Assembly (NCBI RefSeq): GCF_017357525.1
Contig: NZ_CP036172.1
Coordinates: 966,561-1,030,560 of the forward strand
Direction of reading: 5' to 3'
DNA length: 64,000 nucleotides
DNA from: Methanofollis aquaemaris
Lineage (GTDB): Archaea > Halobacteriota > Methanomicrobia > Methanomicrobiales > Methanofollaceae
Part shown: piece by piece, positions 28,100 through 58,059 of the stretch
Position numbering within the stretch: position 1 is the stretch's first letter
How the letters are laid out: each line of letters starts with the position of its first letter
Notes under the pieces: generated by a model
The model's input: only the letters and a program-made list of their open reading frames with translations
Database searches by the model: none
What the model was told of the DNA's origin: nothing
Made by a program: the position numbers and the translations under genes

Positions 28100-28326
28100 A
28101 GTGACAACGCCATCCAGGATTTCTCCCGGACGGTGCCGCACCTTCTCTCCTCTTCCCAGACCTCACAGAAAAAGAAATTTCAGGACACTCTCGGGGAATA
28201 TTCAGACAATAGGCGTTTCGATCCACCGGATCCCCTCTCCGTCCCGGAGATGAATTTGTATTTCGACCGAAACAATAGATCCAGATATATAGAAATTATT
28301 TAATTTGGTAGCGCCATCCCAGAGCT

Positions 28327-29088
28327 ATGTTCCAGATCCATGGGGTTAACCGGATGACACCCCTCACTCAGCGCGGCACCCGCCTCATCTGCTGGTGTAT
28401 GCTCATTTTTCTTGTCCTCGTCCCGGCATGGGGGGCCGGACTGCAGGTCGGCGTGGAGGGTGACCTGCCCGGCGAGGTCGCCGAAGGGGAAGGTGTGGCG
28501 TTCACGCTCATCCTCACCGGCCTCCCGCCTGCCGCCGACGACCTGGTACTTGAGACCGATCTCGTCCCTGAGGAGGGCACGCCTCTCTTCTCGCTTGAAG
28601 GAACAGAGACCGTCTCCAACAGCACACCGTTCATCGTCCCCCTCCCCGCGGCGAACAGCCCGCTGAAGATCGCCGTCACCGGCCAGACCCCCAGAGCCGC
28701 GGATGTGCGGCAGTGCGGGGCGGTCACCCTCACCACCTATGACCCCAGGCTGAGCGGCTACGCCTACTACCGGGTGAGGTTCACCGACGACGAAGGCAAC
28801 CGTCTGGCCGAGAGCGACACGCGGGTCTTCGCTCTCAGGGTCGAGGCCATCGAGGAGTTCAACGAGAAACTGAGAGGCATATCGGATCCCTTCATGGACG
28901 CATACCTCCAGGACCTCTTTGACAAAGGACTTGTCGGGGAGGCGAACGCCCTTGCCGACCACGAACTCTCAAAAGAATCGACAGTCCCGACCCTCTGGGC
29001 GGTCGCGGGCATCGTCCTCGCCGCAATCGCAGCCCTGATCGTCGGGATCAGGATCGGCGGACGAGAATCTGAGGTGAGTGAAGAATGA
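28327..29088 (+). CDS. Secreted, C-terminally anchored protein of tubulin-like operon
   Basis: 253 residues. Signal sequence (hydrophobic core about 22-33, ending near WGA), a beta-rich extracellular domain (about 40-175) with a helical segment (LRVEAIEEFNEKLRGI...), then a membrane helix (about 215-237) and a short acidic cytoplasmic tail. The family is not recognised. ATG 28327 lies about 25 bases after TTTAATTT; an ATG at 28354 is an alternative. Its stop overlaps the start of the tubulin-like gene by four bases (ATGA), so the two are translationally coupled and probably work together across the membrane. Confidence 0.8.
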   Translation: MFQIHGVNRMTPLTQRGTRLICWCMLIFLVLVPAWGAGLQVGVEGDLPGEVAEGEGVAFTLILTGLPPAADDLVLETDLVPEEGTPLFSLEGTETVSNSTPFIVPLPAANSPLKIAVTGQTPRAADVRQCGAVTLTTYDPRLSGYAYYRVRFTDDEGNRLAESDTRVFALRVEAIEEFNEKLRGISDPFMDAYLQDLFDKGLVGEANALADHELSKESTVPTLWAVAGIVLAAIAALIVGIRIGGRESEVSEE

Positions 29089-32000
29089 AGCGTGAAAGAG
29101 AGGCCGGAACCGCCCTCCAGCTCCCGATAGACCTGACGATCTGCGGACTCGGCGGGTGCGGGAAAAAACTGGTCGGCGAGATCTGCAGACAGGAATGGTT
29201 CCTGAACTACTACTCCAGGACAGGCCGACACCTGAGCATCTATACGATGGACACCGACGCCAACGAGCGGTTTCAGGACGAAGCCATGCGGGAGAGGGTG
29301 CTTGAGACCGTCGACACCCTGGGTGGCCGGGGCAATATCGAGTACGACGCCCTGTACCTCCCCAACCTCGCGAACATCAGCCAGGTCTCCGACCTCGCCG
29401 GTCTGGACATCGCCGAGAAGATCAAAGGAACCAAATCCGAACCCGGCACCGCGGTCTGGTGGCTGAACGACCCCTCGGAAGAGGGCCTGCACTTCGACGA
29501 ACTCAGGACCATCGACCCCTTCGTCACCGACGACTTCGGCGGCGGGGTGCACAGGCGGCGGGCGATCTCCAAGGCGATCCTGTATAAGGTGATCAACGAG
29601 GGACAAGCAAGCGGGTTCCCCATGTTCTCGACGATGGGGACGACGGTCATCGTCGTCGGGCTCGGCGGGGGGACAGGTTCGGGGATGTTCATCGATCTCG
29701 CCCGGTATATCAGGGGACAACGGGGCGAGACCGCCCAGGTCTGGCTGTATATCGTCCTCCCGACCACCATGGAAGGGGAGAAGGAACAACTCAACGCCGC
29801 CGTCGCCCTGACCGAACTGGAATATCTCAACCAGAACGAACGACTCTTCAACTACATCGTCCTCACTCCGCTCGGCCCGACCGGGTACAAAAAAGGTGAG
29901 GAGGCACGGGAGGAGGTGCACGAGTTCGACGCTGTCTTCCCGTACATCTTCACCAACTTCCTCCACCTAGAGAAGGGCGACATCAATATCGGAGACGCAA
30001 AAAAACCGTACGCCTCGTTCATCATCGCCGACGCCCATGTCATTTCCTATCCGGTCGAGGAGTTGCGGCGCCTCAAGGAGGAGTACGAGGTGGTCATCGA
30101 GGAACTGGAGGAGATCACCGCCAGCAGAAAACACCTCAACCAGGCGGTCGGCGACCTCCTGGACGAGAACGGGTTGACTGCAGTGGTTCCGCCGACGAGG
30201 AGCGACTTCGACTATATCAAAAAGGAGTTCGGGACCATCGAGAAGGTCTGGAGGAATGAGATCGGCAGGCTCCTCGACTACCAGACCGGCATCGCCGTCG
30301 AGTTCTTCATCGAGAACAATGTCCCGCCGGAACTCCGTCCCGACATGGTCAGGACCTACGACGACCTCGTCGCTTTTCTCGCACGGGTCAGGACCTTTGC
30401 CCAGGCGGTGAAGGAGGACGAACTCAAGGACGACCTTGACCGGAAACTCTTCCGAAGTCTTCCCGAGTCGTTTCATGCCCTTGAGACCACGGCCAGGCTC
30501 TTCAGGCGGATCGCCGCCATCGACGACGAGGCGATGCATGCCGCCCTGATGGAGACTCTCAAAGGGAGAGAGGAAGTCGCGCCGTTTGTGCGGGAGGTGG
30601 TCGGCAGACGAAAAGAAGTTCTGGACGAGGCCCACCTCCTTGAGACGGCCCTGGCGGAGAAGAAGGGCGACCTCGATCGAATGGAGGCCCAGAAGGAGGA
30701 GATCGACCGGTCGGTCGAGCGCACTCTCTCGGACGTGGACATCATGCTCGACCAGTTCGTCACCCTGAAAGAGAAGGCCAGGGCAATCGAGGGGCCGGAG
30801 AAGGGGTTGCAGGAGTCGATCAACAGGAGTATCGAGGCCCTCCAGAAAAAAAAGGTCAAGGCCGGGGACAAAGAGGCGTGGCTCAGGGCCGCCGGGGTCG
30901 CCGAGGTCCAGCAGGAGATCACGGCGTTGTCCCATGAGAGCGGCGAAGGTCTTGACAGCCTGGCCGACCTCGTCGAGGCGATCGCCCTGTATCACTATTA
31001 TGAGATGCGGGTTGCGCGGATCGACGCCGGGGGCATCGGCTCAAAGGTTGTCGGGTTCATCAACAAAAAACCTGCACGGGAACGGAAAAAATTCGAGGCG
31101 CTCAGAAGAGAGAAGGAGGAGTTCATCAAGGCGAACGCGAGGTACTGGAACCTCCAGATCGATCCGTCCTTCGAACTCAGGTTCCCCGAGGACTTCATCG
31201 TCGCGGGTCTGCAGCGGCGGGCCGAGGAACTGAGAAGAAAGATCACCGAGACCCTCTTCGCCCACCTTCCTCTCGACGACCCGGAGGGAGTCGAGGCCCT
31301 CTTCGAGGCCGGTGAGCGGGGAACAATCAGGGCGGCCCTCAGGGACCGCCTCAACGGAGCGGCCCTCAGACAGGAAGGGTTCACCGAGAAGTACACCGCA
31401 CACGAAGAGGAGTATTCGAAACTCGGCAGGCAGACCAGGGAGAAACAGGAGATGGTCCATGCCCTCGAAGAGACCGAAGAGGTGACCGACAGAACCTTCC
31501 CGCAGAGGCGGGAGATCAACCGGCACTACCGGACCTTCTCGGATACCATCGTCAGGATCAACGAGGAGAAGACCTACGGGAAACACACAAGGAAGGGGTT
31601 GTATATGACAAAATTCGGGGACATCAACCCCAGGATCCTCTCGCTCATCCATGACGACTCCTCACTGTGGGACCTGGACTGGGAAGACAACGGCCGCAAA
31701 GAACTGGACAAACTGGTGGCCGAGATCACCGGGACGTACAAACATCTCATCGACAACTACAAACTCGGCATCCACAACCTGATGGTCCCGATCAGCGCGA
31801 CCGAGCGGTGGAACTTCGGGAAGGTCGGTCTGATCGTCGCTTCACCCTCTGACTACATTGCACGGACCATCGCAAGCGCACGGGTGGGGGATCTGATGAC
31901 CCGCGAGGTCAACGAGACCCTCGCGCTCAGGAACATCAACGATTCCCGTCTGGTCACGCACAACCACACCAGGCCCTGGGAGATCGCCCTCACCTTCGTC

Positions 32001-32258
32001 GCCTCCGCCTCGTTCCTCGACAATATCTCGCCGCTCATCGCCGGGGGCGGATACTGGGAGATATATGAGAAGAATCGGGACAATATCCTCCATCATGTCC
32101 TCCTGATGCATGAGGGCAAATATATCACCAGAGAACGGTTGCTCGATCTCAAAGAGGCGGGACAGCTCTCGAACCTGGAGAAAAAAGGGACCAATATCTC
32201 TGATGTGATCCTGGAACTCTACACGGTCAAGGGGATCCGGGAGGCACTGCCCAGATGA
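29085..32258 (+). CDS. Giant tubulin/FtsZ-like GTPase with coiled coils
   Basis: 1057 residues. The N-terminal third (about 14-340) is a tubulin/FtsZ-superfamily GTPase domain: a first nucleotide loop GLGGCGKK (21-28), DTDAN (56-60, ribose/T3-like region), and the tubulin signature GGGTGSG (194-200). It most resembles the tubulin-like domain known as Tubulin_2. Downstream are long coiled-coil segments (about 335-365 and 520-610, and again near 780-840) and a C-terminal domain of unknown fold (about 840-1057). It is three times longer than FtsZ and lacks the usual FtsZ C-terminal peptide. It is linked by four-base overlaps to a secreted protein upstream and a membrane GTPase downstream, suggesting a role in membrane shaping rather than division. 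Confidence 0.85.
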   Translation: MKREREAGTALQLPIDLTICGLGGCGKKLVGEICRQEWFLNYYSRTGRHLSIYTMDTDANERFQDEAMRERVLETVDTLGGRGNIEYDALYLPNLANISQVSDLAGLDIAEKIKGTKSEPGTAVWWLNDPSEEGLHFDELRTIDPFVTDDFGGGVHRRRAISKAILYKVINEGQASGFPMFSTMGTTVIVVGLGGGTGSGMFIDLARYIRGQRGETAQVWLYIVLPTTMEGEKEQLNAAVALTELEYLNQNERLFNYIVLTPLGPTGYKKGEEAREEVHEFDAVFPYIFTNFLHLEKGDINIGDAKKPYASFIIADAHVISYPVEELRRLKEEYEVVIEELEEITASRKHLNQAVGDLLDENGLTAVVPPTRSDFDYIKKEFGTIEKVWRNEIGRLLDYQTGIAVEFFIENNVPPELRPDMVRTYDDLVAFLARVRTFAQAVKEDELKDDLDRKLFRSLPESFHALETTARLFRRIAAIDDEAMHAALMETLKGREEVAPFVREVVGRRKEVLDEAHLLETALAEKKGDLDRMEAQKEEIDRSVERTLSDVDIMLDQFVTLKEKARAIEGPEKGLQESINRSIEALQKKKVKAGDKEAWLRAAGVAEVQQEITALSHESGEGLDSLADLVEAIALYHYYEMRVARIDAGGIGSKVVGFINKKPARERKKFEALRREKEEFIKANARYWNLQIDPSFELRFPEDFIVAGLQRRAEELRRKITETLFAHLPLDDPEGVEALFEAGERGTIRAALRDRLNGAALRQEGFTEKYTAHEEEYSKLGRQTREKQEMVHALEETEEVTDRTFPQRREINRHYRTFSDTIVRINEEKTYGKHTRKGLYMTKFGDINPRILSLIHDDSSLWDLDWEDNGRKELDKLVAEITGTYKHLIDNYKLGIHNLMVPISATERWNFGKVGLIVASPSDYIARTIASARVGDLMTREVNETLALRNINDSRLVTHNHTRPWEIALTFVASASFLDNISPLIAGGGYWEIYEKNRDNILHHVLLMHEGKYITRERLLDLKEAGQLSNLEKKGTNISDVILELYTVKGIREALPR

Positions 32259-33667
32259 GAGTGCGCAACCGGGAAAGGCTGCTGAGAGAGGGCGTCGTCG
32301 TCGTGCTGGCCTTCGCCCTCTCGGTGGTGCTGCTCAGAACCACACCGCAGGTCATCTCCGGGCCGATACCACCCTGGTCCGGGTCGCCGGCGATGTTCTG
32401 TCTGGGCTTTCTGGTTCCCGGCGCACTGGGTCTGCTGGTGGAAGAACGGACGAGGTCGGGGGGGGTGGCGCTACTCGCTTTCACCGTACCTCTCTTCTTC
32501 TTCTCCTTCCTCAATTCGCCCCAGCCCGGGTTCACTGCCCTCCTCGGCGGCCTGGGTGCCGGAGCGGCCGTCGCCCTCGGCACCTTCTGGAAGAACCGCT
32601 CCGACATCCTCTCATGGGCCAGTCGTTTCGTCGTCAAACTCTTCTCGGTCACCATGGCGGCCGTCATCATCATCCTGCTCGTCTCCGCACCCGTTCTCTC
32701 CCTGGCGGGAGGGTTGGCCGTCATCATCGCCCTCACTTTCCTGGCCCTCTGGGCCGTCCGCAGGGTCAGGAGGTCGGAGACCTTCATCCTGGGACCGAAG
32801 GGATCTGGAAAGACTCTCCTTCTCCTCGCGATGTACAGCCATATCGTCAGGGAGTTCTCAGGGCGGAGAGAGGAGGTGATCCTCGCGGAGGACGAAGAAA
32901 AAATGCGAATTGAAGATCTCCTCTCAGGTCTGGAAGAGGGAATACTCCCTCCTCCGACAGAGGAGACTGGCCTTGCGGTCTATCGCCTTTCTGGACAGAG
33001 GTTCGAGATCGCGCCGGTCAGGGTCGCCTTCGTCGACTATGCCGGGAAGTACGCGGCGCCGCTCTCCGGGACGGCATATGCCGATGCCCTCAAGAGGGTC
33101 GCCGCAGCGGTCGGGGCCGAGCCGCGCCTGGTCGAGGCGAAGATCGGCAGTTTCGAGTACCTGAAACACCTCAAAGAACACCACGCCGGGGCGATCGCCG
33201 GGGAGATGGACGTCCTCGTTCCCGTCTGCATCCACCGGCACCTGGAAAAGGCCGGGAAGGTGCTCTTCCTCATCGACGGCGATCATATCGTACACTTTCA
33301 CCAGGAAGGGCGCAGGGCGCTGACCCATCTCTTCGGGCAATACTCGCGGGTGATGGAGAGCCTGGGTGACGATCGGGTCTACGGTTTTGTCGTCACGAAG
33401 ACCGACAGGATACGGGATCTTGCAGAGATCGACGAGACATCAGAAGGAGCGGAGCGGATAGAACGCGAGATCTATCAGCAACTCATCCAGATCAGCACCT
33501 TCAATGAGATCCACAACCGCGCCCTCTCGGTCCCGGTCTATTTCCTTGCGGTCAGCACCGATGCAACGCTCAAACCGGCCGGGGCGGGAGAGGGCAATGG
33601 CCGGGAAGATACACTCAGACAACTCTATCCCTGGAGGATCGACGAACTTGTCAGGTTCGGGTTCTGA
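32255..33667 (+). CDS. Membrane-anchored P-loop GTPase of tubulin-like operon
   Basis: 470 residues. The first 170 are hydrophobic with about five membrane segments; a basic RRVRR stretch then leads into a cytoplasmic P-loop domain. Walker A is GPKGSGKT (180-187), the switch II motif is FVDYAGKY (DxxG), and TKTD in VVTKTDRI stands in the place of NKxD, so guanine specificity is likely. The fold resembles small G proteins such as the SRP receptor beta/Arf group, but I do not recognise the exact family. It overlaps the tubulin-like gene by four bases and is probably its membrane partner. Confidence 0.8.
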   Translation: MRVRNRERLLREGVVVVLAFALSVVLLRTTPQVISGPIPPWSGSPAMFCLGFLVPGALGLLVEERTRSGGVALLAFTVPLFFFSFLNSPQPGFTALLGGLGAGAAVALGTFWKNRSDILSWASRFVVKLFSVTMAAVIIILLVSAPVLSLAGGLAVIIALTFLALWAVRRVRRSETFILGPKGSGKTLLLLAMYSHIVREFSGRREEVILAEDEEKMRIEDLLSGLEEGILPPPTEETGLAVYRLSGQRFEIAPVRVAFVDYAGKYAAPLSGTAYADALKRVAAAVGAEPRLVEAKIGSFEYLKHLKEHHAGAIAGEMDVLVPVCIHRHLEKAGKVLFLIDGDHIVHFHQEGRRALTHLFGQYSRVMESLGDDRVYGFVVTKTDRIRDLAEIDETSEGAERIEREIYQQLIQISTFNEIHNRALSVPVYFLAVSTDATLKPAGAGEGNGREDTLRQLYPWRIDELVRFGF

Positions 33668-33695
33668 AATGTTCGTCAGAGCGTGAGGAGAGACA

Positions 33696-34238
33696 ATGGG
33701 AGAGAAGGTTGAGAATATTGTCGTCCTCCTCGTCGGGGTGCTCCTCCTCGTCGGTGCCCTTGCAGTCCAGCAGCCGTTCCCTCTCTTCCCGCCGGAGAGG
33801 AACGGAGAAATAACACCCACGGTGCCCACACCGGAGAGCACCTACACCCCTGCCGGCACACAGGAGATCTTTCGCTATGCCTCCGCGGGGTACGAGAACC
33901 AGACCTTCGTCGTCCCGGTGAATGCGACAGCACCGCCGCTGACGATCAGGTACTCGGTCACCCCGCGGCTGATCGAGGAGGGTTCGGACCGCGTTCCCTC
34001 ACTCGACTCCTGGTTCGTGGTCAGGGTCGTCGACGAGGAGGGCACCGTCGTCGGAGAAGATGGATACGGCACACCTGCGGGGGAAAAGGGAGGATACAGT
34101 CGGAATGAGAAAGGAAATCTTGAAGTCTTTGCCGCAGGGGTCTACACCGTCGAGATCAGGTTCCACGAGATGATCGCCGAGATCGTCGTCGAGACAGAGA
34201 CACCGCTTACCCCACAGCCATCCCCAGGATCTCCTTGA
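33696..34238 (+). CDS. Membrane-anchored extracellular protein, last gene of tubulin-like operon
   Basis: 180 residues: one N-terminal membrane segment (about 8-27, not clearly cleaved), a proline/threonine-rich linker (about 35-55), and a beta-rich extracellular domain (about 60-170: TIRYSVTPRLIEE, SWFVVRVVDEEG, GVYTVEIRFHEM). The family is unknown. It follows the membrane GTPase by 28 bases. Its 3' end overlaps the convergent response regulator by 32 bases. With the first gene it gives the operon two proteins facing outside and two facing the cytoplasm. Confidence 0.7.
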   Translation: MGEKVENIVVLLVGVLLLVGALAVQQPFPLFPPERNGEITPTVPTPESTYTPAGTQEIFRYASAGYENQTFVVPVNATAPPLTIRYSVTPRLIEEGSDRVPSLDSWFVVRVVDEEGTVVGEDGYGTPAGEKGGYSRNEKGNLEVFAAGVYTVEIRFHEMIAEIVVETETPLTPQPSPGSP

Positions 34239-36460: not shown

Positions 36461-38626
36461 TCACGCCTCCAGTTTTCCCCTGACCTGCGGATCGCCGTGA
36501 TATTCCTTGAACCGTTTCAGGGAGACGGTCAGGTCGCGGGTGAAGGCGAAGTAGCCGATCTGCGTCTTCCGGCAGAGGTTCATCGCCATATCGTACAGCC
36601 CCCGCGGGTCCGGCCGCGCCTCGCCGAGCCAGATATGGAAGATGTTGCCGCCGTCGACGATCGGGAAGAAGACGTGCTCCACCTCCATCCGCCTGGTGAG
36701 GGGGACGTCGGCCCCTGGCGAGACATGGGTGCCGTTGGTGTAGTAGACCGGGAGGTCCCGTGTCGTCCCGCAGTCGGCGACCGCCGTCTCGGTGTCGCCC
36801 TGCATCACGCCGAGCGCCGCCTCCCTGAACTGGTCGTCGAGCATGTCCGCGACCGCAAAGCGTTGTCCGGTCGTCTCGGCCGGCGTCCGTGCCAGGGCGA
36901 TGGTCATCCCGTTCTTCTCGGAGAGCGTCCGGGCATAGAGTTCCATCTCGGTCATCGCCCGCACCGCCATCTTGAAGGCCCCCTTCGACTCGTGGATCTG
37001 GTGGCCGGTATGGTGCTGAACCATCTCGTTCACCCCCACGACCCCGATGGTGTAGACCAGACTCTCGAGGTCGACGGCCACCGCCCCGCGCTCACCGGTC
37101 TGCGGGTCTTTCGGCCGCTGCATCGCAAAGGGCATCCGGCCGTTCGTCCGGATCGTCTCCATCCACCGCCGTTTGACCTTGAAGACCTCGACGGCCACGT
37201 CCATCAGAGCGCGGAGTTCGGCGAAGAGACGTTCGTCCTCGCCTTCGGCCTTGAAGGCGGCCCGCGGACAGTTGACCGAGACGACCTCCCAGGAGCCCAT
37301 CGAGAAGTGCGACCCGTCCTTGAAGGAGAGTTTCTCCTCGAAGTGATCGTCCTTCTCGTAGGTGGAGGAGAACTGGTAAGCGCAACACTGGTAGCACGAG
37401 ATCCCCTTCCCGGCCCCGCGGTACGGCGGGAGCTGGTTGTCGTAGTAGGGTGTCCCGAACTTGGAGGCAAGTTCGAAGGTGAGAAGATAGAGATCCTGGT
37501 AGGTCGGGAGGTCGGGATGAGTACGGTTGAACACCTCGTCTTCGACCATGAAGTCGGGCTCGATGGAGATCTCGGGCTTCGGGAAAGAGAAGGGCTTGCC
37601 CCAGTAGTCGCCCTCGAGCATCACCTCCATCATCGCCTTGAAGAGGAGGCGGACCTCGCGCTCGAACTCGCCGTAGGTCCGGAGAGGCGCCTGTCGGCCG
37701 TCCCAGACCTTGCCCTTGTAGACGCAGGGTTTGTCCCACCAGAGGCTTGGGACACCCGGCGAGAGCTGGACCGACGAGAAGACGAGTTGTCCGCCGCGGG
37801 CGACCATCATCTGGGTCATCTCGTAGACGAACATCTGCATCAACTGCTTCATCTCGCCGTACTCCATCCCCTCGAAGTACGGGGCCATGAAGGTGAGGAA
37901 GTTGTAGTAGCCCTGCCCACCCGCAAAGTTGGTCTGAGCGCTTCCGAGTGCCTTGACCGCATGGAGAACCGCGACCTCGGCGCGCCTGGCTGGACCGGCA
38001 ACCGAGGCCTTGGTCCCGTTGCCGTCGGGCATCAGCCCGTAGTAGAAGAAGTAGCGGAGATCCCAGTCCTGGCAGAAGGGGCGAGAGCCAAAGTATTCCA
38101 GGTCATGGATATGAAGGTCGCCGGCCAGGTGGCGGTCGGCAAGTTCGGGCGGGAGTTGGAGGAGGTACTGCTCCTTGGAGATCTTGTCGGCCTTTTTCTT
38201 ATGCGAGGTCTCGGCGTTCTCCTGGAGGTTGGCGTTGTCGTGGGCTTCGAAGCCGCGGCCGACGTCGATGAGGTGGGCGTCGTAGACCGGGGTGCCGACC
38301 CTGGTGCAGACATTCCTGTACTCCACCATCCCCTTCTCCAGGAAGACCATGTTGACGATCTCGCGGATCAGCGCCCCGGAGAGGAAATGCAGGTCCAGGT
38401 TCCGGATCCGTTCTTCGACGATCCGTCCAATCTCCTCGGCCTGCTCCTTCGTCGCCGGCGCATACCCGTAAAAGTGCTCGACAAGCCGGGTTTCTTTCTC
38501 GATCTGAGCGACGATCTTGGCGCGGTCCCACTCGAAGATATGCCCCTCGGTGGAGCGGACCTTCGGGAGGGGCGGGACGAAGACACCGTCAAGCGTCGCC
38601 TGTTTGCTCTGCCGGTCCACCGTCAC
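36461..38626 (-). CDS. nrdD: Anaerobic ribonucleotide reductase-like NrdD lacking glycyl-radical C-terminus
   Basis: 721 residues. An N-terminal ATP-cone-like segment (KVRSTEGHIFEWDRAKIVAQ) is followed by a full catalytic barrel: NVCTRVGTPVYD, HIHDLEYF, GSAQTNFAGGQGYYNF, SCYQCCAYQF, VNCPRAAFK and IVDGGNIFHIWLGEA. Class III reductases normally end in a four-cysteine zinc site and an RVxGY glycyl-radical loop; here the frame stops soon after IGYFAFTRDLTV, with neither. The GTG start at 38626 overlaps the glutaredoxin-like gene (GTGA). The operon glutaredoxin-nrdD-DUF1786 is intact, so either this is a variant enzyme or the glycyl domain is supplied elsewhere. No nrdG activase is seen in the window. 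Confidence 0.85.
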   Translation of the reverse strand: MTVDRQSKQATLDGVFVPPLPKVRSTEGHIFEWDRAKIVAQIEKETRLVEHFYGYAPATKEQAEEIGRIVEERIRNLDLHFLSGALIREIVNMVFLEKGMVEYRNVCTRVGTPVYDAHLIDVGRGFEAHDNANLQENAETSHKKKADKISKEQYLLQLPPELADRHLAGDLHIHDLEYFGSRPFCQDWDLRYFFYYGLMPDGNGTKASVAGPARRAEVAVLHAVKALGSAQTNFAGGQGYYNFLTFMAPYFEGMEYGEMKQLMQMFVYEMTQMMVARGGQLVFSSVQLSPGVPSLWWDKPCVYKGKVWDGRQAPLRTYGEFEREVRLLFKAMMEVMLEGDYWGKPFSFPKPEISIEPDFMVEDEVFNRTHPDLPTYQDLYLLTFELASKFGTPYYDNQLPPYRGAGKGISCYQCCAYQFSSTYEKDDHFEEKLSFKDGSHFSMGSWEVVSVNCPRAAFKAEGEDERLFAELRALMDVAVEVFKVKRRWMETIRTNGRMPFAMQRPKDPQTGERGAVAVDLESLVYTIGVVGVNEMVQHHTGHQIHESKGAFKMAVRAMTEMELYARTLSEKNGMTIALARTPAETTGQRFAVADMLDDQFREAALGVMQGDTETAVADCGTTRDLPVYYTNGTHVSPGADVPLTRRMEVEHVFFPIVDGGNIFHIWLGEARPDPRGLYDMAMNLCRKTQIGYFAFTRDLTVSLKRFKEYHGDPQVRGKLEA

Positions 38627-49894: not shown

Positions 49895-52800
49895 ATGTAC
49901 CGATGTAAACAAGAACACCATACTCGCGCGGCCGCACTGGCCGTGGCCGTCACGCTCCTCTGCTGTGTGCTGGTCATGCCCGCTGCCGCCGAAGACACAG
50001 CCCTTGGGGCGGCAATCGACGCCCCAGACCTCGTATGGACGACCGACACCTCCACAAAGGCGTGGACGGTCGATACCGAACATGCCGTGAAAGGCGGAAG
50101 TTCTGCCAGGAGCGGGCCGGATTTAAGCTGGGGCGACTCGAAGATCGAGACCTCGGTCACCGGCCCAGGCACTCTCTCCTTCTCATGGAACGTCTCCTCC
50201 CCTTCGAGTGACTATTACATGTTCTCGATCGACAGTGCCGAGCAGAAGCAGATCTCCGGCACCGAGTCTGTCTGGACAGAGGAGTCTTTTGAGATCAGTG
50301 CCGGCGAGCACACCCTCACCTGGACCTATCACAAAGGGGGCATGGGCGTCCAAAACCAGAACGGCGGATGGCTCGACGCGGTCACCTTCGCAGCGGGAGA
50401 GTGTACCGACTTCTCCGCCAACGTCACCACCGGCATGGCACCCCTTGCCGTGCAGTTCACCGACCTCTCCACCGGCGACGTGAGCGGATGGGACTGGGAC
50501 TTCGGCGACGGTCCAGACCACGCCACCGTGAAGAGTCCGGTCCATGTCTACCAGGACGCCGGCACCTACGATGTCACCCTGACCGTCCAGAAAGGTGGGT
50601 CTCCTGACACGGTCAAGAAGACAGAGTTCATCGAGGTCGTACAGGCCCGGACTCTCGGCGACGCTGTGGGCGCATCCTCCCTTGCCTGGACCACGGGCGG
50701 CAAAGCCACCTGGGGCGTCGACATCACGGACGGCGTGACAGATGGAGACAGTGCCAGAAGCGGTTGCCTCTCCAGCTCTGGGTCCACCGGGATCAACACC
50801 ACAGTCAGCGGCGCCGGCACCCTCTCCTTCGACTGGAAGGCAAACATCCAGTATAACTCTATGTTCGGATCCCAGGGCAGCCTGGAATTCTCCATCGACG
50901 GTGCGACCTCATCTGACGGGAACAACTACAGGAAGATCACGGCGACTAAAGACTGGGCGCATGAGTCTTTCGACCTCGGCGAGGGCGAGCACACACTGCA
51001 GTGGACCTACGCGGCCAAGATGAGTGACAAACCCGAGAACGGCGGCTGGCTCGACAACGTCACCTTCACCCCGAAGGCGGTGCCAGAACCCACCACCCTC
51101 AAAGAGGCCCTCGACGCCCCGAACCTTGAGTGGACCACAGATGGAGCATTTGAATGGACGGTCGACACTGAGAACGGCGTGAAAGGCGGCGGCTGCGCAC
51201 GGAGCGGTCCGCTTGAATACAGTTACCAGGAATCAAACCTCCTCACCAGCGTCACCGGCCCCGGCACCTTCACTTTCTGGTGGAACGTCTCCTCCAGCAC
51301 TGAGGAATACTATTATTTCGCAATTGACGAAGACGAGAATGTCATTTCCAGTATCAATGGTACCAACCACACGTGGGAGGAGTGTACCGCTGAGATCGCA
51401 CCTGGCAAGCACACCCTCAAGTGGTGTTACTTCCGGTTCACTGATGAGCCAGAAGGCGAGGACTGCGGTTGGGTCGACAATGTCTCCTACACCCAGCATA
51501 TCGCCACCGCCTTCACTGCCAACACCACCGGCGGTGAAGCCCCGCTCACCGTGCAGTTCACCGACCAGAGCACCGGCGCGATCACCTTCAGACTCTGGGA
51601 CTTTGGCGACGGCACCACCTCCGACGAGCAGCACCCGGTCCACACCTTCGAGGCCGGCACCTACGACGTCTCCCTGACCGTCACCAGAGACGGCGTGGAG
51701 GAGACCGAGACAAAGACCGGGTATATCCATTCGGTCGGCGAGGTCACCCTTGCCGAGGCCCTGGACGCCCCTGACCTCGCGTGGACCACCGGCGGCAATG
51801 CCACCTGGTCGGTCGTGAAGGGCCCAGAGTATGTCGGTGCCTGCGCCGGCAAGAGCGCCGGGGCACTGACCTGTAGCCAGAACTCCTGGGTCCGGACCAC
51901 CGTCACCGGTCCCTGCACCCTCTCCTTTGACTGGAAAGTGAAGCCTGGCAAGGTATATGGGATGGCAATGGGCAGGATGGAGTTCGCAGTCGACGACGCC
52001 GACCAGTACGACGACCTCTACAAGAAGATCCAGCACGGCTCCGACTGGTACCATGAGACCTACCACATCGGCCACGGCATTCACACTGTCACCTGGACCT
52101 ATTCAACATCCACAACCGACGCCGAGGAGAATGGCGGTTGGCTCGACAACGTCACCTACACCTACGGCGGCGGCGAACCGGTCGCGGACTTCGTCACCAA
52201 CGTGACCGAGGACCGCGGCATGGCGCCCCTGGCCGTGCAGTTTGCCGACAACTCCACCGGCTTCCCGACCGCATGGTCCTGGGACTTCGGCGACGATTCG
52301 GCACCGGCCACCACGGAGCGGGCGACCCATGTCTATACCAACCCCGGCGAGTACCCGGTCACCCTGACGGTCACCAACATCGTCGGGAAGGACGCTGACG
52401 GCAAGGCCGTCCTCGGCACCGACAGCGTGACAAAGACGATGAAGGTCGTCAAGGCCATCTCGCTCGGCACTGCGGCCGACGCTCCCGACGAATTTGTCTG
52501 GACGACCGGCGGCGACGCCGAATGGTTCACTGACCTTTATTGTGCCCTGAAGGGCGGAAGTTCCGCGAGGAGCGGGGTCATCTCATCCAAGGAGAACACC
52601 TCCTGGATCGAGGCGACGGTCACTGGTCCGGGCGTGCTCACCTTCAACTGGAACATCAATTCCAGTGCCACCACCTACAGCGGGCTGCTGAAGTTCTCGG
52701 CCAACGGCGTCCCGGTCTCAGAGATCAAGGGAACCCATGACGGCAAAGACTGGCCTGGCGTATACTATGAAGTCCCGCCCGGCGAGCAGACCTTCAGGTG

Positions 52801-54829
52801 GACCTACTCCAACGAATACCGGTACAAAGAGAACGACTGCGGTCACCTCGACAATGTCACCTACACCTCGGGCGCCATCCTCCCGACGGCCGCCTTCGAG
52901 GCCAATGTGACGCGGGCGATGGCCCCGGCGACAGTGCAGTTCAACGACACCTCTGCAGGATGCCCTACCGCATGGTCCTGGGACTTCGGCGACGGCGCCA
53001 CCTCTGACAAGCGGCACCCGACCCACACCTTCGAGGAGGTCAGGGAGTACACTGTCACCCTGACGGTCACCAACGACGCCGGCACCAGCACCACGACGCA
53101 GACCATCACGCTCGTCCCCTTCGCCACCCTCGGCGAGGCCGTCGAGGCCCCTGACCTGGAGTGGTCCACCGGCGGCGACGCCCCATGGTTCGTCGACGTC
53201 GACTGCGTCCACATCGGCACCACCTCGGCGCGGAGCGGCGCCATCGGCAGCAGCCAGGAGTCCTGGCTCCAGGCAAACATCACCGGCCCAGGCTACCTCG
53301 CCTTTGCCTGGAACGTCTCCTCTGAACCCAGGCACGACTACCTGAGACTCTACATCGACGGGGAAGAGGAGAAGAACCTCTTCGGTTTCCCTGAGAACTG
53401 GACAGAAGAAGAGTACAGGCTCGGGTTCGGCACGCACGCCGTCAGGTGGGTGTACGAGAAAGATTCCACCTCCGATATGATGGAGGACTGCGGCTGGGTC
53501 GACAATGTCACCTTCACGCCCGTAGACGACACCGACTTTGTCGGCAACGTCACCTGGGGCGAAGTCCCGCTCACCGTTGACTTCACCGGGTACACGACCG
53601 GCACCGCGACCCGCTGGGCCTGGGACTTCGGCGACAAGGAGTCGACGGTCGGCAGGAACCAGACGCACACCTACACCACGCCCGGTGTCTACAATGTCAC
53701 CCTCATCGTGAAGAAGGACACCGCCCCTGAAGGCCAGATGGAGGTCAAGAACGGCTACATCACCGTCACCCCGACCTTCGAGGAGGCCCTCGACGCCGAA
53801 GGCCTCGTCTGGAAGACCGGTGGCGACGCCCCATGGTTCGTCCAGTTGAACGAGTCCTTCACCGGCGGGAGTTGCGGGCAGAGCGGCGCCATCGACGAGC
53901 GCCACCAGCAGTCATGGATCCAGACCACCGTCACCGGCCCCAAGAACCTCACTTTCGACTGGAAGGTCTCCTCCTATAAGGGCTACTCGATGAAGTCCTC
54001 AGACGCCCTCAACTTCTCCATCGACGGCGAAGTGCAGGACGAGATCGCCGGCACCGACGAAGGATGGCAGCGCACGACGTACACCCTGGCGAGGGGCGAG
54101 CACACCCTGCGGTGGGTGTATGAGAAGCGTTCATACAGCAGCACCACCGGGGAAAACTGCGGATGGCTCGACAACGTCACCCTCACCGATATCGCACCGG
54201 TGATCTCGTTTGCGCCGGCCCCGGCGATGGTCGCCGCCGGCACCGAGCGCGAGGTCGCCATCGTGGCGGATCACTTCCCTGAAGGCTTGAAGAACATCAG
54301 CCTCACAGTCAGCCTTGAGAATACGCACGCCGAGATCACCGGCGTGACCTCGGCCTCCATGGCGGACACCCTCTCGTACTCGGGTGTGCCAGGCACCACC
54401 GTCACTCTCTCCGCACGCGACGACGGCAACACCATCGAGGCAGGTGCCGAGGATGTCGTCCTCGCCACCCTGAAGGTCAAAGGTCTTACCGACGGCACAG
54501 CCGGGATCACGGTCAGCGACGCTGTGGTTTACACAGACAACAGCGAAGAGACTGTCGTAATCTGCAGGCCGGGCGCCATCGATGTCGTCGGCCTCTCGCC
54601 CCTCCCCGGATGCACGCACATCCCCGGCGACGGTGACGGCGACGGCCTCTTCGAGGACGTGAACGGCGACGGCACCCTGAACGCCGACGATGTCAGGGTC
54701 TACTTCGAGCACTTCGAGAGCATCTTCTCGCAGAAGAACCCGCGGGTCTTCGACTACAACAGCAACGGCCGGATCGACTTCGACGACGTCGTGACGGTCC
54801 ACCGCGCCATGGAGACCGACAGAACATGA
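49895..54829 (+). CDS. Giant modular PKD surface protein with cohesin-like and dockerin domains
   Basis: 1644 residues with a signal peptide (to about 31). Seven copies of a ~135-residue jelly-roll-like module (start about 33) share ARSG, TVTGPGTLSFxW and CGWLDNVTFT motifs. Five are followed by a PKD domain with the WDFGDG signature; modules 2 and 7 are not. After module 7 come a cohesin-like domain (about 1434-1565; GTEREVAIVADHFPEGLK) and a type I dockerin (about 1573-1640) with two calcium loops, DGDGLFEDVNGDGT and DYNSNGRIDFDD. Dockerins bind cohesins, so the protein can be both docked and dock others. It lacks a C-terminal membrane helix. It probably forms part of the cell surface. The protease gene follows after 17 bases. 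Confidence 0.88.
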   Translation: MYRCKQEHHTRAAALAVAVTLLCCVLVMPAAAEDTALGAAIDAPDLVWTTDTSTKAWTVDTEHAVKGGSSARSGPDLSWGDSKIETSVTGPGTLSFSWNVSSPSSDYYMFSIDSAEQKQISGTESVWTEESFEISAGEHTLTWTYHKGGMGVQNQNGGWLDAVTFAAGECTDFSANVTTGMAPLAVQFTDLSTGDVSGWDWDFGDGPDHATVKSPVHVYQDAGTYDVTLTVQKGGSPDTVKKTEFIEVVQARTLGDAVGASSLAWTTGGKATWGVDITDGVTDGDSARSGCLSSSGSTGINTTVSGAGTLSFDWKANIQYNSMFGSQGSLEFSIDGATSSDGNNYRKITATKDWAHESFDLGEGEHTLQWTYAAKMSDKPENGGWLDNVTFTPKAVPEPTTLKEALDAPNLEWTTDGAFEWTVDTENGVKGGGCARSGPLEYSYQESNLLTSVTGPGTFTFWWNVSSSTEEYYYFAIDEDENVISSINGTNHTWEECTAEIAPGKHTLKWCYFRFTDEPEGEDCGWVDNVSYTQHIATAFTANTTGGEAPLTVQFTDQSTGAITFRLWDFGDGTTSDEQHPVHTFEAGTYDVSLTVTRDGVEETETKTGYIHSVGEVTLAEALDAPDLAWTTGGNATWSVVKGPEYVGACAGKSAGALTCSQNSWVRTTVTGPCTLSFDWKVKPGKVYGMAMGRMEFAVDDADQYDDLYKKIQHGSDWYHETYHIGHGIHTVTWTYSTSTTDAEENGGWLDNVTYTYGGGEPVADFVTNVTEDRGMAPLAVQFADNSTGFPTAWSWDFGDDSAPATTERATHVYTNPGEYPVTLTVTNIVGKDADGKAVLGTDSVTKTMKVVKAISLGTAADAPDEFVWTTGGDAEWFTDLYCALKGGSSARSGVISSKENTSWIEATVTGPGVLTFNWNINSSATTYSGLLKFSANGVPVSEIKGTHDGKDWPGVYYEVPPGEQTFRWTYSNEYRYKENDCGHLDNVTYTSGAILPTAAFEANVTRAMAPATVQFNDTSAGCPTAWSWDFGDGATSDKRHPTHTFEEVREYTVTLTVTNDAGTSTTTQTITLVPFATLGEAVEAPDLEWSTGGDAPWFVDVDCVHIGTTSARSGAIGSSQESWLQANITGPGYLAFAWNVSSEPRHDYLRLYIDGEEEKNLFGFPENWTEEEYRLGFGTHAVRWVYEKDSTSDMMEDCGWVDNVTFTPVDDTDFVGNVTWGEVPLTVDFTGYTTGTATRWAWDFGDKESTVGRNQTHTYTTPGVYNVTLIVKKDTAPEGQMEVKNGYITVTPTFEEALDAEGLVWKTGGDAPWFVQLNESFTGGSCGQSGAIDERHQQSWIQTTVTGPKNLTFDWKVSSYKGYSMKSSDALNFSIDGEVQDEIAGTDEGWQRTTYTLARGEHTLRWVYEKRSYSSTTGENCGWLDNVTLTDIAPVISFAPAPAMVAAGTEREVAIVADHFPEGLKNISLTVSLENTHAEITGVTSASMADTLSYSGVPGTTVTLSARDDGNTIEAGAEDVVLATLKVKGLTDGTAGITVSDAVVYTDNSEETVVICRPGAIDVVGLSPLPGCTHIPGDGDGDGLFEDVNGDGTLNADDVRVYFEHFESIFSQKNPRVFDYNSNGRIDFDDVVTVHRAMETDRT
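49980..54190 (+). repeat. Seven tandem ~400-base coding modules
   Basis: The modules begin near 49995, 50640, 51090, 51735, 52455, 53115 and 53770. Each encodes one jelly-roll-like unit with conserved TTGG/TTD near the start and LDNVT near the end. Nucleotide similarity between copies is moderate, so the expansion is not recent. Confidence 0.75.
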
Positions 54830-54846
54830 GACAGGTGGCTTGAGAA

Positions 54847-57800
54847 ATGAATTCCAACATACTGAAAGGTCTGGCAGGCGCGCTCCTCTGCGTCTGTCTC
54901 CTTCTCTGGGTCGCGGCCCCGGCAGCCTCCGCACTGGAGGTGACCGAGGCACCGCTCAACCCTGAGTTTGTGAAATATCTTGAGGAGAAAGAGGCCCCGG
55001 CCGACCGCATGATGACGGCCGCCGCCGCCCCTATCGAAGAAGGCGAACACACCGACAAGATCTGCGGCGAGATCCCCTCGCCGGTGACCGTCGCCTGGCC
55101 CGAGGGCAGCGAGGTGCAGACCACCTCGGCCTTCAGGCCCGCACCCTCGGAGAGCCGTTGTGACCTCCGCGACGAAGGGCGGGTCGGGTCGGTGAAGGAC
55201 CAGGGAGAGTGCGGGAGTTGCTGGTCGTTTGCGGCCCTCGGTTCCCTGGAGTCCACGCTCCTCCCCGAAGAGGTCCGGGACTTCTCCGAGAACAACCTGA
55301 AAAACACCCATGGCCTGGACTATGCCCACGACAAAGGCGGGAACGCCTACATGGCCACCGCCTACTTCTCCCGCTGGTCTGGCCCGGTGAACGAGTCCGA
55401 CGATCCCTACAGCGAGGTCTCGGGCGTCTCCCCCACAGGGCTCACCGTGCAGAAGCACGTCCAGGACGTGGACTTCCTCCCGGTGCGGAAAGACCGCTCC
55501 AACGTCACCCTGATCAAGCAAGCGGTCAAGGAGTACGGCGGGGTCTACTCCTCGATGTACTGGTCGAACGGGTTCTACGACGAGGGGCATGCCAGTTACT
55601 ATGACCCCTGGCTCGTCGGCGGCGGCCATGCCGTCCTGATCGTCGGCTGGGACGACACCTACAGCAAAGACAACTTCACCTTCACCCCGCCTGGCGACGG
55701 TGCGTTCATCGTGAGGAACTCCTGGAACGCCGACTGGGGCGACGACGGCTACTTCTACCAGTCATACTACGACGCCGACCGCGGCTGCAAGGCGATCTTC
55801 ACAGCAGAAGATACCAACAACTACCGCGACGTCTATTTCCACGACCCCCTGGGTTGGACCTCGGCGATCGGGATTGGGAGCGAGACGGCGTACGCCGCCA
55901 ACGTCTTCACCGCCACCTCTGGCAACAGCCTGGGCGCGGTCGGGTTCTTCACCCCGGCCCCGAACGCCGCCTACGAGGTCTCGGTCTATCTCGACCCGAC
56001 CGACAGCCCTCTCTCCGCAGACGGTCCGGCGACGACCATCTCAGGCACCCAGGTGTTGCCTGGCTACCACACGCACCCGCTCACGACGCCGGTGCCTCTG
56101 AAACCCGGCCAGACGTTCTCGGTGGTCGTGAAACTCACGACGCCGAACTATTACCAGCCTCTTGCAGTCGAGAAACCGATCGCAGGCTTCTCCTCCGGCG
56201 CAAAGGCGTCGGCAGGCGAGAGTTATGTCAGCGCCGACGGCGTCGAGTGGGAAGACCTCACCACCACCATGCCCAACACCAATGTCTGCCTGAAGGCCTA
56301 CACGGTCTACGAGGAGCCGAAACTTTCGTTCAATACCGCCCATTCATCTCTGAACGCAGGTGACGAGACCGAGGTCGCCATCACGATGAGCCGCGCTCCC
56401 TGGGGGCTTGCCGGCTACGAGATCGACGTCTCGGTCGCCGACCCTGAGGTCGCCACCATCACCGGCGCCTCCTACCCCGCCTGGGCGACGCTCAACCTCT
56501 CGCGCGAGACCGACGGCGGTCTCATGATGCGGGCGGTCGACCTTGAGGACGCCGTCCATGCAGGCGACGAGGACGTCGTGCTCGGCACGGTCAGGGTGAA
56601 AGGCCTCATCGGCGGGTCTTCAGACCTGAAGATCGCCGTGCGGCAGATCGACGGCGACGGCGGCGATCTGGTCACCACCACGGCAAACACGAGCAGCGTC
56701 GCGATCACGCCGGCCGGAGAAAATGAACAGGCCGAGAAAGTCAGACTGGACCTGCCGGGATGCAACTTCTCAGGTGCGAATGTCTCGGTGACGGCCTCGG
56801 CAGACGCCCGGGTTTCTGAGGACAGAAAGAGCATCATCATCTCCGGGGATTCCTTCGACCTGACCATCAGGACCATCGGAAGGGTGACCGAGGAGGGCGG
56901 CACCATCAAAGGCACCGTCGAGAACTTCGTCATCCAGACCAGGGCACTCACGGTCCGATCCGAGGATGCCGGCGAAGTCCGCGGCTCGGCCATGGCAGAC
57001 CTCTCCAGCGTGCCTGAGGGTGCCGCCGTCACCACGGCCCTGAGAACCGAAGCAAGGGCCGGGACGATGGAGATCTTCGAGCGTGCGGCCGCAGAAAACG
57101 GACTGACAATCGACGCCCTCGCCGCGTCCCTTGAGATCCGGACCACCAATCTCAACGACGGCGAGGAGATCACCGGCGCCACCGTGCTGATGAGCGTCCC
57201 GACCGCCTGGGTGGAGGCGCACGGCGGTGCAGAAAACATCACGATCATCCGCAGTGGCGACGACGGGACGGCAACAATCCTCCGGACCCACGTTCAGGGG
57301 ACCGAAGACGGCATGACCACCTTTGCCGCCACGTCACCTGACGGATTCTGTGAGTTCGGGCTCGTTGCCGTCTCGGCGGCACCGATCGAACCGACACCGG
57401 TACCGACCACTGAACCTGTCCATGTCTCCTCGCCCAGCAGCGGCGGCAACAGTCAGTCGGACACCGCAGTCGGTACGACGGGCGCCCTCCATGCAGGGGA
57501 GAACATCACCCTGAAGATGCGCAACACCCCGATCACGGCGGTAACGCTGAGGGCGAACGAAGACATTGACAGCCTCATGCTCTCGGTGAAGAAGACTTCA
57601 CGCCCGTCGGCAGCCGATGCCCCTGAGGGCGCGGTCTATGCTTACGTTGAGGCGACCCTGTACCACACCACCGAAGACCACCTCTCCAGCGAGACCATCA
57701 CCTTCGCCGTGCCCACGGCATGGATGGAGGCGCATTCCTGCACTGCCAGCGACATCGGCCTCTTCAAGCATGTCGACGGCGCATGGAAGCCTCTCAAGAC

Positions 57801-58059
57801 GGTGGTCACCGGTGAAAACAGCGGCATGGCACACTTTGATGCGGAGAGCGACGGCTTCTCCACCTTCGCCATCGCCGCAACCGCGGGGACGCCTGAGACC
57901 CTGACACCGACCGTGACCTCGACCAGCGCCGAATCAGGTGTGGTGACCCCGGCAGAGACCGGAGCGGTCCCGGCGGCGACGACACAGAAGTCGCCTCTGC
58001 CCCTCTGGGCCGCGGCCCTCGCGATCGGCGCCGCCGTCCTCCTGGCAAGGAAACACTAA
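54847..58059 (+). CDS. Surface papain-like (C1A) cysteine protease with cohesin-like and PGF-pre-PGF-like domains
   Basis: 1070 residues: signal peptide (to about 29), propeptide-like segment, then a C1A catalytic domain with oxyanion Gln119, nucleophile Cys125 (GECGSCWSF), His261 (GGGHAVLIVGWDD) and Asn291 (RNSWNADWG), all intact. Next a lectin-like domain (about 325-490), a cohesin-like domain (about 495-625; GDETEVAITMSRAPWGLAGYE), one beta domain (about 640-840), a PGF-pre-PGF-like domain (about 885-1015), a Thr/Pro-rich linker and a final membrane helix before KH. It therefore sits on the cell surface. It may capture the dockerin of the protein encoded just upstream. A chagasin-type inhibitor is encoded at 21.8 kb. 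Confidence 0.9.
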   Translation: MNSNILKGLAGALLCVCLLLWVAAPAASALEVTEAPLNPEFVKYLEEKEAPADRMMTAAAAPIEEGEHTDKICGEIPSPVTVAWPEGSEVQTTSAFRPAPSESRCDLRDEGRVGSVKDQGECGSCWSFAALGSLESTLLPEEVRDFSENNLKNTHGLDYAHDKGGNAYMATAYFSRWSGPVNESDDPYSEVSGVSPTGLTVQKHVQDVDFLPVRKDRSNVTLIKQAVKEYGGVYSSMYWSNGFYDEGHASYYDPWLVGGGHAVLIVGWDDTYSKDNFTFTPPGDGAFIVRNSWNADWGDDGYFYQSYYDADRGCKAIFTAEDTNNYRDVYFHDPLGWTSAIGIGSETAYAANVFTATSGNSLGAVGFFTPAPNAAYEVSVYLDPTDSPLSADGPATTISGTQVLPGYHTHPLTTPVPLKPGQTFSVVVKLTTPNYYQPLAVEKPIAGFSSGAKASAGESYVSADGVEWEDLTTTMPNTNVCLKAYTVYEEPKLSFNTAHSSLNAGDETEVAITMSRAPWGLAGYEIDVSVADPEVATITGASYPAWATLNLSRETDGGLMMRAVDLEDAVHAGDEDVVLGTVRVKGLIGGSSDLKIAVRQIDGDGGDLVTTTANTSSVAITPAGENEQAEKVRLDLPGCNFSGANVSVTASADARVSEDRKSIIISGDSFDLTIRTIGRVTEEGGTIKGTVENFVIQTRALTVRSEDAGEVRGSAMADLSSVPEGAAVTTALRTEARAGTMEIFERAAAENGLTIDALAASLEIRTTNLNDGEEITGATVLMSVPTAWVEAHGGAENITIIRSGDDGTATILRTHVQGTEDGMTTFAATSPDGFCEFGLVAVSAAPIEPTPVPTTEPVHVSSPSSGGNSQSDTAVGTTGALHAGENITLKMRNTPITAVTLRANEDIDSLMLSVKKTSRPSAADAPEGAVYAYVEATLYHTTEDHLSSETITFAVPTAWMEAHSCTASDIGLFKHVDGAWKPLKTVVTGENSGMAHFDAESDGFSTFAIAATAGTPETLTPTVTSTSAESGVVTPAETGAVPAATTQKSPLPLWAAALAIGAAVLLARKH

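Follow-up and report, generated by a model that had tools for sequence, protein, structure and literature searches.

The 64,000-nucleotide stretch of the Methanofollis aquaemaris genome analyzed here (contig NZ_CP036172.1, positions 966,561 to 1,030,560; hereafter the window) carries an operon of four open reading frames (ORFs) on the + strand, P1 to P4, encoding proteins of 253, 1057, 470 and 180 amino acids (aa). The Methanofollis genome carrying it is a single contig of 2.75 Mb. We found that P2 is a giant tubulin-superfamily GTPase of the FtsZ-like-1 family, encoded next to a membrane GTPase (P3) and to anchored ectodomain proteins. The features, numbered from the first letter of the window, are as follows.

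28276..28326, + strand: candidate archaeal TATA box, an AT-rich stretch with TATATA about 40 nt 5' of the P1 start (by eye)
28327..29088, + strand: P1, anchored or secreted ectodomain protein (ORF, hydropathy; no Pfam match)
29085..32258, + strand: P2, FtsZ-like-1/Tubulin_2 GTPase, 1057 aa (Pfam, AlphaFold2 (AF2), Foldseek, hhalign)
29130..30173, + strand: P2 residues 16-363, tubulin-type GTPase domain (AF2 model, hhalign, alignment)
30579..30845, + strand: P2 residues 499-587, long paired helices, coiled coil (AF2 secondary structure; coiled-coil PDB profile matches)
31797..32255, + strand: P2 residues 905-1057, mixed alpha/beta C-terminal domain (alignment and AF2 model)
32255..33667, + strand: P3, membrane GTPase with six predicted transmembrane helices, DO-GTPase-like (AF2, Foldseek, DO-GTPase2 profile)
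33035..33049, + strand: P3 switch-II motif DYAGK (261-265), with Lys265 in place of Glu (alignment)
33696..34238, + strand: P4, N-terminal anchor (5-23) plus ectodomain, lineage-restricted accessory gene (ORF, hydropathy, genus comparison)

An initial annotation, made from the letters alone, had given ORF positions, lengths and motifs (GGGTGSG at residues 194-200 of P2; GPKGSGKT, DYAG and TKTD in P3) that are all exact. The ATGA overlaps said to tie the first three genes are present as two 4-bp start/stop overlaps, at 29085-29088 (P1/P2) and 32255-32258 (P2/P3). A 28-bp gap separates the end of P3 from the start of P4, and the last 32 bp of P4 overlap a convergent response-regulator gene. All four genes are under purifying selection, with ratios of nonsynonymous to synonymous substitution rates (dN/dS) against the nearest relative of 0.26 (P1), 0.11 (P2), 0.26 (P3) and 0.32 (P4), and of 0.20-0.57 across P1-P4 against a farther congener. 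The four-gene operon is real and not due to chance.

Pfam assigned P2 to Tubulin_2 (PF13809, 1e-12; 48.5 bits, cut-off 27) and to Tubulin (PF00091, 5.6e-7). The AF2 model of P2, based on an alignment of 34 homologues, reached a mean predicted local distance difference test (pLDDT) score of 86.7. In the PDB, Foldseek matched it best to gamma-tubulin, CetZ1 and beta-tubulin, followed closely by TubZ, each with prob 1.00 over approximately 310-360 columns. When hidden Markov models were compared with hhalign, the profile of residues 1-362 matched CetZ from the same order with Prob 96.6 and E 5e-10. Both GTP-binding loops, T1 (GLGGCGKK) and T4 (GGGTGSG), are near-invariant over 34 homologues and across Methanomicrobiales, Methanosarcinales, Archaeoglobi and haloarchaea. 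P2 truly belongs to the tubulin superfamily, its tubulin fold lying where it had been anticipated, within residues 1-350. The top PDB profile match, 7zr2, falls in the coiled coil and was taken as a coil artefact.

The archaeal P2 profile also matches bacterial proteins of approximately 460-1130 aa (cyanobacteria, Chloroflexi, Ignavibacteria and others; E 1e-6 to 2e-17), and P2 therefore represents FtsZ-like 1, the family that Makarova and Koonin reported in 2010 (PMC2875224). That paper, which the initial annotation had cited, indeed describes the family together with a membrane-linked GTPase in archaea (type Huta_2051, 1051 aa), so that neither the family nor the pairing is new. FtsZ-like 1 shares with P2 its size, an N-terminal tubulin-type GTPase domain with GGGTG(S/T)G, a long coiled coil and a C-terminal domain. 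It also shares a neighbouring P-loop GTPase with a TxKD-type motif (TKTD in P3), membrane-associated in archaea, and coexists with ordinary FtsZ. The Methanofollis operon differs in its constant ectodomain partner P1, in a P3 without the switch-II Glu, and in missing c3, a gene described below. A vWA protein or protein kinase is a frequent, not a defining, companion of the family (PMC2875224); neither was matched in P1-P4 or the close neighbours scanned, and kinases do occur in haloarchaeal relatives.

CetZ and FtsZ1/FtsZ2 share with P2 the GTPase fold and the T4 loop, but those of this genome are about 360-400 aa long and lack both the ~500-residue helical insert and the membrane-GTPase operon. 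The same genome has a second unusual tubulin-family gene (L077 6532-8448; contig about 1340531-1342447), a 638-aa CetZ (CetZ_C 4.6e-43) with ~270 extra C-terminal residues. In another Methanomicrobiales family we noticed a Tubulin_2 protein that is shorter, at 720-740 aa, and is accompanied by a partner of 270-290 aa and, close by, a protein with an HD-CE domain (L071 4918-9934; L072 6509-11332), apparently a different Tubulin_2 system.

In the P2 model, the N-terminal elements follow the order S1-H1-S2-H2-S3-insert-H3-S4-T4-H4-S5-H5-S6. After S6 come a helix (276-297), a loop with Asp304, a strand (312-321) and a helix (324-361) that runs into the helical and coiled-coil part. Helices 499-550/552-587 and 766-830 precede the C-terminal domain (905-1057), where strands 913-919, 954-959 and 966-976 surround helices 923-946. 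This domain is conserved as far as haloarchaea, with the motif PW[ED]xxLT...FLDN. Judging by element order, we propose that 276-297 is H7, Asp304 the T7 acid, 312-321 S7 and 324-361 H9, a register with which the N-terminal hhalign alignment of P2 and CetZ agrees. Region 913-976 is proposed to correspond to S8-H10-S9-S10, which may be what is left of the activation domain of tubulin. Makarova and Koonin 2010 (PMC2875224) could identify neither T6-H7 nor any C-domain similarity in FtsZ-like 1, and the model suggests a reason why they missed the second half of the tubulin fold.

For P3, the five membrane helices first annotated gave way to six: hydropathy and the AF2 model (pLDDT 85.7) place them at 6-29, 40-60, 64-87, 92-112, 116-144 and 148-167, with positively charged cytosolic ends, followed by the GTPase domain at residues 174-470 with its three motifs. 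Foldseek ranked the TRAFAC GTPase YcjX first (E 1e-4); Nog1, eEFSec, SR-beta, Fzo1 and Arf proteins matched more weakly. The DO-GTPase2 Pfam profile matches 23 of 25 P3 homologues (best 3.6e-6). P3 itself scores 22.3 bits, under the cut-off of 27, and the profile is unspecific, as other P-loop proteins score equally high in a whole-genome scan; for these reasons we use the label "DO-GTPase-like" only. As modelled, P3 is a six-helix membrane TRAFAC GTPase of this kind. PF19993 was rejected as a specific P3 finder, because many P-loop proteins reach an equal score.

The DO-GTPase/GAP1 systems (Kaur et al. 2020, PMC7159879) likewise have a TRAFAC GTPase with N-terminal membrane helices adjoining a coiled-coil tubulin protein. 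GAP1 is typically downstream of the GTPase there, and relatives of the P3 operon also encode a further protein directly downstream. The differences are that P3 stays below the Pfam cut-off, that the conserved Walker-B Glu marking DO-GTPases is absent in Methanofollis, and that no recognisable GAP1, effector or HSP70 accompanies P1-P4. The ArvABC vesicle GTPase operon of Haloferax (PMC10927574) is also an archaeal operon around a membrane-linked GTPase, but its GTPase, ArvA, is small and Arf-like and has DUF2073/DUF2072 partners, whereas P3 has six membrane helices and another family match. DUF2073, DUF2072 and Arf-like ArvABC components were all missing from the Pfam matches of P1-P4.

Hydropathy of P1 shows a hydrophobic segment near the N-terminus (20-38), a membrane helix at the C-terminus (223-241) and an ectodomain between them. 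The topology first suggested, with two nucleotide-binding proteins inside and the anchored ectodomain proteins outside, held up. A P1 homologue lies directly 5' of P2 in Methanomicrobiales, Methanosarcinales and Archaeoglobi. The order P1-P2-P3 is kept in all 25 operon loci examined in Methanomicrobiales (P1 is cut by a contig end in one), and also in Methanosarcina, Methanolobus, Methanosalsum, ANME-2 and Geoglobus. A P3 homologue lies near P2 in haloarchaea as well, usually directly downstream; P1 was undetected in the haloarchaeal P2 neighbourhoods, where some neighbours combine a kinase or other cytosolic domain, one helix and a beta-sandwich ectodomain. The expectation that homologues keep all four genes together was thus borne out for P1-P2-P3 and not for P4, which is present in 6 of 9 P2-bearing Methanofollis genomes and one other Methanomicrobiales operon, and absent from nearly all other homologous operons. 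P4 is lineage-restricted, not a constant part of the system.

Directly 3' of P3, other Methanomicrobiales and Methanosarcinales operons carry the gene that we call c3; its product is mostly 470-740 residues long and comprises a cytosolic domain, a single membrane helix and an ectodomain. The c3 match in Geoglobus is weak (3e-4), and in many Methanomicrobiales a PEGA-repeat protein gene comes after c3. We rejected c3 as a GAP1, given no GAP1 Pfam match in 18 c3 members, and found the idea of P4 as a leftover of the c3 ectodomain unsupported (hhalign Prob 14). Operons of the window type in Methanofollis have no c3. Their P3 is also altered at the position that corresponds to Ras Gln61, immediately after D-Y-x-G. 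All homologues outside Methanofollis whose motif is readable have Glu there, haloarchaea included, and 9 of 9 Methanofollis genomes with window-type P3 have Lys, Arg or Ser. At the sequence level, the joint loss of c3 and Glu suggests that c3 acts on the P3 switch.

The near neighbours of the operon are genes for a PAP2 phosphatase, a response regulator, a DUF1786 protein and a ribonucleotide-reductase-like protein. In three other Methanofollis genomes (G002, G004 and G007) the whole P1-P4 block is missing, the PAP2 and response-regulator genes lie 8-14 bp apart, and DUF1786 and then the ribonucleotide-reductase-like gene come next, as they do here; the only P2 matches there are weak, to short FtsZ/CetZ-type proteins. 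Because the flanking genes lie so close in genomes without P2, P1-P4 is present or absent as one block, and the empty site is compatible with either gain or loss. A separate genomic site for the cassette in G001 and G003 was considered and rejected, as DUF1786 lies on the same contig, ~9-11 kb off, indicating a local rearrangement.

In a quick P2 tree, to be taken with caution given several long branches, Methanofollis P2 falls inside a Methanosarcinales-type clade. It is 37% identical to the type typical of other Methanomicrobiales, and genome G006 contains both types. As far as sequences go, this placement is suggestive of transfer or an ancient duplication. The Borg elements of methane-oxidising archaea have genes for PEGA proteins and for a Tubulin_2 protein in which tandem repeats vary (PMC9879509); they are a possible mobile reservoir of the P2 system. 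G006 additionally holds a very diverged P2 paralogue (L090 14571-17861; 25% identical, among the longest tree branches), directly following a second complete P1-P2-P3-c3-PEGA operon. One contig (L118), assigned to a Bacteroidota metagenome-assembled genome, bears a whole archaeal operon with a P2 very near a Methanoculleus sequence, probably a binning contamination.

We propose that the operon represents the archaeal FtsZ-like-1 system in its Methanofollis form and works as a membrane-anchored, GTP-driven P2 polymer scaffold gated by extracellular sensing, a reading to which we give an even chance. P2 would bind GTP through its intact T1/T4 pocket and form head-to-tail assemblies along the inner membrane face; its ~500-residue helical/coiled-coil insert would serve as docking arm or lateral spacer. 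P3 would be membrane anchor and switch, recruiting or releasing P2, and the ectodomains of P1, and in some species of P4, would report an envelope or extracellular condition to it. In most relatives, c3 may set the nucleotide state of P3. Because Methanofollis dropped c3 and replaced the switch-II Glu, its P3 switch would be expected to hydrolyze GTP slowly, or to respond to P1/P4 only. The most likely end use is local envelope scaffolding or remodelling, which we rate somewhat below an even chance; next comes defence-type sensing, itself improbable.

A bolder proposal has two parts: that the activation domain of a complete tubulin-type P2 is split by the ~500-residue coiled-coil insertion between the H9 and S8 equivalents, and that Methanofollis P3 is a hydrolysis-impaired, c3-independent switch after losing its regulator and the Gln61-position residue. 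We advance the two together tentatively, with the balance against them. If the activation domain is indeed split, polymerised P2 would project a long arm from the filament.

Several points weigh against the scaffold reading and its extension. P2 may have no need to polymerise: Foldseek coverage is limited to its N-terminal part, and the C-terminal profile found no match in CetZ/FtsZ C-domains (hhalign Prob 0.1), for which reason the split activation domain is put forward as a proposal only. P2 has no FtsZ_C or CetZ_C Pfam match either; an assignment of its C-terminal domain to these families by sequence profile is unsupported, which leaves strand order as the basis. No Pfam match was obtained for c3 among 18 members, so its label as a regulator rests on position and topology, and the c3 profile found nothing in this genome, in a search that had no positive control. 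The c3/Glu coincidence is limited to one clade, and the two losses therefore count as one evolutionary event. Lastly, the initial annotation knew of no experimental work on this gene set, and we likewise found no experiment on any FtsZ-like-1 system member in the open literature.

An alternative places the operon in conflict or defence: GTPase and tubulin-like protein would form a threshold switch, by which an invader sensed at the membrane leads to a polymer and the cell is stopped or killed. DO-GTPase/GAP1 systems that include membrane components and tubulin proteins with coiled coils were attributed to conflict by Kaur et al. 2020 (PMC7159879). The patchy, blockwise distribution weighs mildly for this, and the nesting of the Methanofollis copy within Methanosarcinales-type copies and the two full operons plus diverged third P2 of G006 point the same way. 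However, Pfam finds no effector domain in the operon, PADLOC gave no meaningful match for P1-P4 and the neighbours are housekeeping rather than defence genes, all mildly against; GAP1 is unmatched too. We consider this alternative unlikely.

Slightly less probable again is a device for signalling or transport across the envelope: P2 would be a non-polymerising GTPase scaffold, and the ectodomains would bind a ligand or the S-layer. Reviewer 1 of Makarova and Koonin 2010 (PMC2875224) argued for this from gene contexts, and relatives carry PEGA, CarboxypepD_reg and kinase-TM-ectodomain proteins. Yet no transporter or ligand-binding domain was recognised in the window operon, and characterised tubulin-type GTPases form filaments, according to the 2010 authors. 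A classical role in cell division or cell shape, redundant with FtsZ/CetZ, would suit a tubulin-superfamily protein but is very improbable, with two FtsZ-like genes and CetZ-type genes already in the same genome and the block missing in three congeneric genomes.

The membrane-remodelling machine first suggested for this operon is a published guess: Makarova and Koonin 2010 (PMC2875224) argued for membrane remodelling, and reviewer 1 disputed it, favouring transport or signalling. Beyond the papers compared (the 2010 supplements lay outside the comparison) go the six-helix topology, the constant P1, the blockwise empty site, the loss of c3 and Glu, and the proposed split activation domain. FtsZ-like 1 spans archaea and bacteria and has since 2010 been a prediction that the tubulin fold serves yet another purpose. 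Its function becomes directly testable, because a culturable methanogen genus offers a core of three genes, natural congeners show a clean empty site, and one lineage has lost both a putative regulator and the residue at a catalytic position.

Two further observations concern the surroundings. In Methanofollis relatives, intein-size inserts in frame break up the ribonucleotide-reductase-like gene (window 36461-38626, 721 aa), giving open frames of 1203 and 1669 aa (L216 236-3847; L217 394-5403), and comparable long frames adjoin the cassette in loci L085-L088. At window 49895-58059 lie two big adjoining surface-protein genes, one of 1644 aa with five PKD domains and one of 1070 aa with a papain-like protease and a lectin-like domain.

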